This document shows positions 17,982 to 18,179 of a stretch of 64,000 nucleotides of DNA, one piece after another. Origin of the DNA: Taxawa tesnikishii (nom. ined.) (lineage: Eukaryota > Ascomycota > Dothideomycetes > Dothideales); NCBI GenBank assembly GCA_030247885.1, contig JAPDRO010000020.1:620001-684000 (forward strand), in the 5' to 3' direction. Within the stretch, counting starts at the first letter, position 1. The number at the start of each line of letters is the position of its first letter. A program made the translations under genes and the position numbers. A model generated the notes under the pieces. That model ran no database searches and was not told the DNA's origin. It worked only from the letters and a program-made list of their open reading frames with translations.

Positions 17982-17999
17982 GGCCGGTTGGCGCAATGG

Positions 18000-18055
18000 G
18001 TAGGCCGCATCTCCAACCACACGTCCTCATTAAACAATAACTAAATGTTGTTTAG
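18000..18055 (+). other. GT-AG insert in the tRNA D loop (candidate spliceosomal intron)
   Basis: The segment begins GTAGGC, ends TTTAG and contains AATAACTAAATG, a good fungal branch-site match, about 14 bases before its end. Its length is typical of fungal spliceosomal introns. Exact removal restores the D stem GCGC/GCGC and a seven-base D loop. The donor is weaker than consensus. Confidence 0.65.
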
Positions 18056-18105
18056 TAGCGCATTCGCCTCCTATTGAGGATGCGAGCGAGAGGTTGCGGG
18101 TTCGA

Positions 18106-18157
18106 GTAAGTAACACGCATTGGAATATCAAGGTTCAGCTTACTAATACTCTATCAG
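18106..18157 (+). other. GT-AG insert in the tRNA T loop (candidate spliceosomal intron)
   Basis: It starts with the near-ideal donor GTAAGT, has the branch sequence TTACTAATAC and ends CTATCAG. Removal restores the T arm, GGGTTCGA joined to GTCCC. All three splice signals are as good as in the protein genes of this window. Confidence 0.75.
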
Positions 18158-18179
18158 GTCCCGTGCTGGTCGACTGTCC

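Follow-up and report, generated by a model that had tools for sequence, protein, structure and literature searches.

We analyzed a stretch of 64,000 nt of genomic DNA (the window; G000:C13:620001-684000) from Taxawa tesnikishii (Dothideales), a desert black fungus, and searched its whole genome (29,367,862 bases, 34 contigs). The focal locus lies in the window between a COMPASS/Spp1-like ORF, with its end at position 17274, and a long ORF beginning at position 18880. It consists of a tRNA-Arg(CCU) sequence interrupted by three segments, and its features are given below (exons, introns and anticodon intron from ARAGORN on the joined sequence, all but the anticodon intron also from the letters; branch-like sites from the letters and a motif scan).

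17982..17999, + strand: exon 1, with the 5' strand of the acceptor stem, the 5' strand of the D stem and the start of the D loop
17989..18000, + strand: A-box-like sequence TGGCGCAATGGG of the unspliced gene, whose final base is base 1 of the intron; 9/9 informative positions of TRGYNNARYNGG
18000..18055, + strand: mRNA-type intron 1 in the D loop, 56 nt, GTAGGC...ACTAAATGTTGTTTAG
18041..18046, + strand: branch-like CTAAAT of intron 1, short of full CTRAY
18056..18073, + strand: exon 2, with the 3' strand of the D stem, the 5' strand of the anticodon stem and the anticodon CCT
18074..18084, + strand: ordinary tRNA intron in the anticodon loop, 11 nt, TTGAGGATGCG, non-GT-AG
18085..18105, + strand: exon 3, with the 3' strand of the anticodon stem, the variable loop, the 5' strand of the T stem and the start of the T loop
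18099..18109, + strand: B-box-like sequence GGTTCGAGTAA of the unspliced gene, whose 4 last bases are intronic; 8/10 informative positions
18106..18157, + strand: mRNA-type intron 2 in the T loop, 52 nt, GTAAGT...TACTAATACTCTATCAG
18141..18147, + strand: branch-like site TACTAAT of intron 2
18158..18172, + strand: exon 4, with the end of the T loop, the 3' strand of the T stem, the 3' strand of the acceptor stem and the discriminator G
18180..18183, + strand: T4 run resembling a Pol III terminator, starting 8 nt past the tRNA 3' end

The original prediction was that a perfect 72-nt cloverleaf appears once 18000-18055, 18074-18084 and 18106-18157 are removed. A letter-by-letter check confirmed these coordinates: the retained pieces (17982-17999, 18056-18073, 18085-18105 and 18158-18172) add up to 72 nt and form a tRNA-Arg(CCU) cloverleaf, although its stems include G.U pairs, which makes the word perfect slightly generous. 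Once the D-loop and T-loop inserts were deleted, ARAGORN agreed: it called a tRNA-Arg(cct) and placed the 11-nt segment (18074-18084) as its anticodon-loop intron. ARAGORN reported no tRNA in the unspliced window, and none at the locus (L031) with anticodon introns of up to 300 nt permitted, and an Rfam search of the focal locus gave no match even at E ≤ 1. The predicted fold of the 72-nt RNA contains the acceptor, D and T arms together with an alternative helix at the anticodon, and its energy is unremarkable relative to shuffled sequences (z = -1.04).

The letters of the other two segments bear out the description of GT...AG inserts, the D-loop one being 56 nt long and the T-loop one 52 nt. 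Branch-like sites had been proposed for both: TACTAAT is indeed found in the T-loop intron, whereas the CTAAAT of the D-loop intron is present but does not make up a full CTRAY. With its GTAGGC donor and with CTAAA instead of CTRAY, the D-loop intron is the weaker of the two. The 3' part of this intron (18030-18056) can be folded as a hairpin that encloses the branch-like site and reaches to the 3' splice site.

Promoter elements were scored on the unspliced gene using the A-box and B-box consensuses, the A box being taken as TRGYNNARYNGG. The inserts had been thought to split both boxes. This is only partly right: as donor letters of the introns substitute for exon bases, the A box is intact (9/9), hence not really split, and the B box keeps 8/10 positions. 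The expected T4 run is present at +8, so that, at the sequence level, the focal gene carries all three predicted Pol III signals. The idea of a Pol II transcript is unsupported given an intact A box, a nearly intact B box and a T4 run after the gene.

A DNA-level search of the genome that took the joined tRNA as query and accepted E values of up to 10 returned the focal place and only one other (C29:62983-63051). This second tRNA-Arg(CCU) gene reads GGCCGGTTGGCGCAAT/GTAAGTTAACA...CGCTAACACGACCGATAG/GGTAGCGCG (slashes mark splice sites here and below), with a 54-nt GT-AG intron in the D loop, 2 nt apart from the D-loop site of the focal gene. It is without a T-loop intron and possesses its own 13-nt anticodon intron. 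The mature sequences of the pair differ at four positions, namely position 26 and three positions in the anticodon stem, where the changes preserve pairing (a two-sided change from T-A to G-C and a change from T.G to T-A). The check for an ordinary tRNA-Arg(CCU) gene elsewhere, suggested along with the original prediction, thus revealed no uninterrupted copy in this search, which might miss a third gene of divergent sequence. AGG could be decoded through wobble by a tRNA-Arg(UCU), should the genome have one.

Insertions of this kind recur across the genome. Our searches identified a total of 10 mRNA-type inserts in eight tRNA genes on five contigs, located in the D arm, the variable arm/T stem and the T loop. 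An intron-blind B-box pattern (GGTTCGANTCC) matched 90 places, against 66 for its reversed control; 84 of these were nuclear and the letters were examined at every one of them. Thirty-two of the 84 are tRNA genes (29 by ARAGORN and 3 by eye), and five of these 32, the second Arg(CCU) gene included, present one or more mRNA-type introns. The other 52 places fell outside the tRNA class; they include L095 and L137, both of them partly tRNA-like. Besides the Arg(CCU) pair, the six interrupted genes are:

Leu(AAG) L058: D-stem intron, GGCC/GTAAGT...ACTAACCAACACGAAG/GAGC (B-box search)
Leu(AAG) L131: two introns, one at the D-stem site of L058 and one in the variable arm adjoining the T stem (B-box search)
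Leu(CAG) L118: one intron, in the D loop (B-box search)
Leu(CAA) L130: GC-AG intron at the D-loop site common to Leu(CAG) L118 (B-box search)
Ile(AAU): split in the D loop (search with the joined exons of the genome's own tRNAs)
His(GUG): split in the D stem by an intron GTTAGT...GCTAACAGTCCTGCAG; this gene adjoins the interrupted Ile(AAU) gene

The Leu anticodons AAG and CAA were read by eye, the ARAGORN labels being taa and SeC(tca). Overall, 8/48 of the nuclear tRNA genes examined bear mRNA-type introns, and this sample is non-random because some genes were chosen for looking split. The only pieces that a yeast tRNA query reached were, judging by their position on the query, those of Gly, Pro, Phe and iMet, and the genes for Lys, Glu, Gln, Asn, Cys, Tyr, Trp, Val and Arg(UCU) lie largely outside the survey. 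For comparison, the description of T. tesnikishii lists 197 predicted tRNA genes, with tRNAscan-SE as the tool used (PMC11195213). A T-loop donor pattern (GTTCRAGTRNGT) was also tried and rejected: it matched 51 places, fewer than its reversed control (127), and the focal gene was the sole tRNA among the 31 places examined (L063-L092 and L152). Regarding the two partly tRNA-like places, L095 (G000:C11:419830-419840, minus strand) presents a B box and a 3' end like those of tRNA-Ser(UGA), with T6 behind them, and no 5' half could be recognised among the 190 nt upstream. L137 (G000:C33:540605-540615) presents a tRNA-like D arm and B box and no clear tRNA; it is possibly a decayed tRNA copy.

The promoter elements of the other interrupted genes were scored in the same way. 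Across seven genes (the His gene was left out), the unspliced A box matched 9 of 9 positions in the focal and Ile genes, 7 in the second Arg(CCU) gene, 6 in Leu(CAG) and Leu(CAA) and 5 in both Leu(AAG) genes. A run of at least four T is found no more than 14 nt from the 3' end in 7/8 interrupted genes, the exception being Leu(AAG) L058, with no T4 run within 80 nt of its 3' end.

The ten inserts measure 49, 52, 53, 53, 54, 54, 55, 56, 56 and 57 nt, and their ends, nine GT-AG and one GC-AG, are those of U2-type introns. A branch-like motif [CT]T[AG]A[CT], with its A located 9-16 nt from the intron end, was found in 9/10 introns (all but the focal D-loop intron, with CTAAA), whereas 5000 shuffles averaged 0.84/10 and never exceeded 5. 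We compared these inserts with three actin introns of the same genome, GTAAGT...GCTAATTCTCAACAG, GTATGC...ATTGACAATGATGCAG and GTACGT...GCTAACAGTCCCACAG, whose boundaries were read from the conserved frame. The tRNA inserts match the actin introns and those of the U6 genes described below in length and signals, within a small sample of three actin and three U6 introns; the likeness can be seen between the actin intron GTACGT...GCTAACAGTCCCACAG and the His tRNA intron GTTAGT...GCTAACAGTCCTGCAG. The COMPASS gene model at NCBI implies an intron whose donor (GTCCAG) is poor and which was not used as an mRNA-intron reference. By contrast, only 2/33 ordinary anticodon introns read GT...AG as placed by ARAGORN (the eight spliced genes being left out and organellar loci included). 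Both are 20 nt long and, by our reading, belong to tRNA-Asp genes mislabelled Leu(caa) by ARAGORN.

Each of the ten introns matched only itself in the genome, and no introner-like copies or very recent copying burst are therefore visible at the sensitivity of BLAST. Of the 45 pairwise intron alignments, four had a z between 2.0 and 2.6, taken here as noise, and the pairs that share a site (Leu(AAG) L058/L131 and Leu(CAG)/Leu(CAA)) presented no intron similarity above that of shuffles. TTTT occurs in none of the ten introns and in none of the 13 when the U6 introns are added; since shuffles give zero in 19% and 12% of cases, respectively, its avoidance is not significant as a Pol III signature.

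The U6 genes of this fungus are interrupted in a similar manner. An Rfam search for U6 (47/1430 candidates scored) gave three matches above the cut-off, each covering model positions 1-66 only:

C19:390720-390915, minus strand: U6 gene L157 with a GT-AG intron
C23:1835580-1835775, minus strand: U6 gene L158 with a GT-AG intron
C33:874190-874390, minus strand: U6 gene L159 with a GT-AG intron

These introns are 51-56 nt long and occupy a common site in all three genes, CCCCTGCACT/GTAAGC...ACAG/AAGGATGAC; the letters after ACAG read AAGGATGACACATGCAAA. Three weaker matches, below the cut-off and outside the three genes read, span the whole model. The interruption of these genes indicates that the fungus very likely already splices one Pol III RNA with its spliceosome. 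Introns in fungal U6 genes are known and fission yeast splices one (PMC10484740). A search for 5S rRNA, which could miss an interrupted gene, yielded 47 matches among the 47/1720 candidates scored, all spanning model positions 1-120.

We further compared the exons of the interrupted genes with those of their paralogs. The mature exons of the Ile gene are identical at 74/74 positions to a paralog without the insert, and the differences between Leu(CAG) and L139, as well as between Leu(AAG)-5 and L060, are confined to the anticodon intron. The interrupted His copy presents a T55 to C change in the T loop. For Leu(AAG), Leu(CAG), Leu(CAA), Ile and His, the genome also has copies that lack mRNA-type introns, so the interrupted copies of these five isoacceptors may be dispensable; the His copy with T55C and Leu(AAG) L058, which is without a T4 run, may be dying.

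With both Arg(CCU) genes and six more genes interrupted, their exons intact and U6 interrupted alike, the evidence favors a working tRNA processed by the spliceosome, as one of the two readings offered in the original prediction had it. Very probably, the focal locus is a functional nuclear gene for tRNA-Arg(CCU) that carries two U2-type spliceosomal introns and an ordinary 11-nt anticodon intron, and the fungus has at least seven other genes of this kind. Some tRNAs of T. tesnikishii may thus be finished by the mRNA-splicing machinery. It also appears likely that these loci form a set of nuclear tRNA genes with true ectopic spliceosomal introns, and that tRNA-Arg(CCU) can be made only via the spliceosome, from a precursor that would need the tRNA splicing endonuclease too.

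Alternatively, the interrupted loci could be pseudogenes, tRNA copies that were struck by intron insertion and no longer make tRNA while other genes carry the load. A review (PMC4090602) describes D-arm and T-arm insertions in eukaryotic tRNA genes as mostly affecting one of many synonymous copies and as supposed pseudogenes, with exceptions in algae; the uninterrupted copies of five isoacceptors, the T55C change of the His copy and the lack of a T4 run in L058 agree with this picture. However, both places found for Arg(CCU) are interrupted, and this pair retains its stem pairing through sequence changes. Moreover, the mature exons of Ile, Leu(CAG) and Leu(AAG)-5 remained unchanged while their anticodon introns diverged, and the absence of second intron copies, at the sensitivity of the search, leaves no very recent copying burst visible. 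We therefore regard decay as an improbable explanation of the set.

The inserts could also be ectopic tRNA introns of the BHB type, as in Cyanidioschyzon merolae. This alga and the nucleomorphs have ectopic introns in the D and T arms, and the BHB seems to guide the C. merolae endonuclease (PMC4090602). Our BHB scan found the helix in 1/10 inserts, but it also missed 6/8 ordinary anticodon introns used as positive controls and is given no weight in either direction. All ten inserts of T. tesnikishii are bounded by GT/GC...AG, nine carry the branch-like motif and they have the length of mRNA introns, whereas GT...AG ends are rare among ordinary anticodon introns, which makes a BHB origin very unlikely. 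Finally, single loci can mislead, and the original prediction rested on one, such that GT and AG might surround unrelated inserts by chance or the inserts might be assembly errors. The pattern is nevertheless repeated in eight genes on five contigs with insert boundaries fixed by paralogs or the tRNA fold, and the chance of GT/GC...AG in 10/10 inserts is ~10^-17 (uniform bases, all equivalent placements allowed). The assembly was built from both Illumina and Nanopore reads (PMC11195213). Chance or misassembly consequently appears hardly credible.

If the interrupted genes are working tRNA genes, we infer their transcription, the spliceosomal removal of their introns and the order of these steps from the sequence as follows. 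Pol III would most likely transcribe the focal gene, using the intact A box and the nearly intact B box and stopping at the T4 run. The D-loop and T-loop introns would then be removed by the spliceosome through two transesterifications, and the cloverleaf would fold only after both are gone. The anticodon intron would next be taken out by the tRNA splicing endonuclease and a ligase, before the ends are trimmed by RNase P and tRNase Z. The endonuclease/ligase and end-trimming steps follow general tRNA processing.

tRNA splicing and mRNA splicing are usually regarded as separate systems with separate enzymes. Maturation of a tRNA through the spliceosome, if true, would join the two, and the spliceosome would act on a very short and structured Pol III transcript. 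One close likeness is with the U6 introns of fission yeast and other fungi, which are also GT-AG introns within a small Pol III RNA gene; the introns described here differ in having a tRNA host, in occupying several sites, mostly in the A-box region, and in affecting five isoacceptor types besides Arg(CCU). Other structural RNAs are likewise hosts of spliceosomal introns: those of ascomycete rRNA genes and of the Rhodotorula hasegawae U2 gene (listed among the references of PMC2586383), and an mRNA intron of the 18S rDNA to which PMC11782384 refers, although the hosts are rRNA or U2 rather than tRNA. As spliceosomal introns are already known in U6, U2 and rRNA, the novelty here lies in the tRNA as host. 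We found no report of spliceosomal introns in nuclear tRNA genes in the literature searched, most subscription journals being outside its reach.

The ectopic tRNA introns of archaea, C. merolae and nucleomorphs resemble those of T. tesnikishii in being located in the D and T arms, with several per gene and alongside an anticodon intron (PMC4090602). According to the same review, those of archaea and C. merolae are of the BHB type, and the Guillardia theta nucleomorph has introns of 3-24 nt, whose removal the review does not explain; in contrast, the introns of T. tesnikishii are 49-57 nt long, with GT-AG ends and branch-like sites. Canonical introns of eukaryotic nuclear tRNAs (position 37/38) are also present in these genes, with a length of 11 nt in the focal one and of 13 nt in its paralog, but the D-arm and T-arm introns differ from them in site, length and end sequences. 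The noncanonical-intron search of tRNAscan-SE 2.0 is described for archaea (PMC8450103). Considering that ARAGORN and Rfam were blind to the focal locus and that this search is archaeal, such genes may be overlooked in other fungi. If spliceosomal maturation holds true, paralogs that differ by the presence of an intron, at sites known to the nucleotide, would also be material for studying the origin of new introns.

Several contigs and regions presented additional particularities. The contigs C25 (G000:C25; 80,121 bases), C26 and C28 contain many contiguous tRNAs and are probably organellar; the tRNAs of C25 are found at mirrored positions, as with an inverted dimer or an assembly fold-back. 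Within the window, an MFS-like gene is present, and the blocks 1-6000, 22001-24000 and 40001-64000 have a GC-content of 23-32%, the adjoining blocks being mostly at 48-57%. These low-GC blocks are reminiscent of the AT-rich regions seen in fungal genomes affected by RIP.
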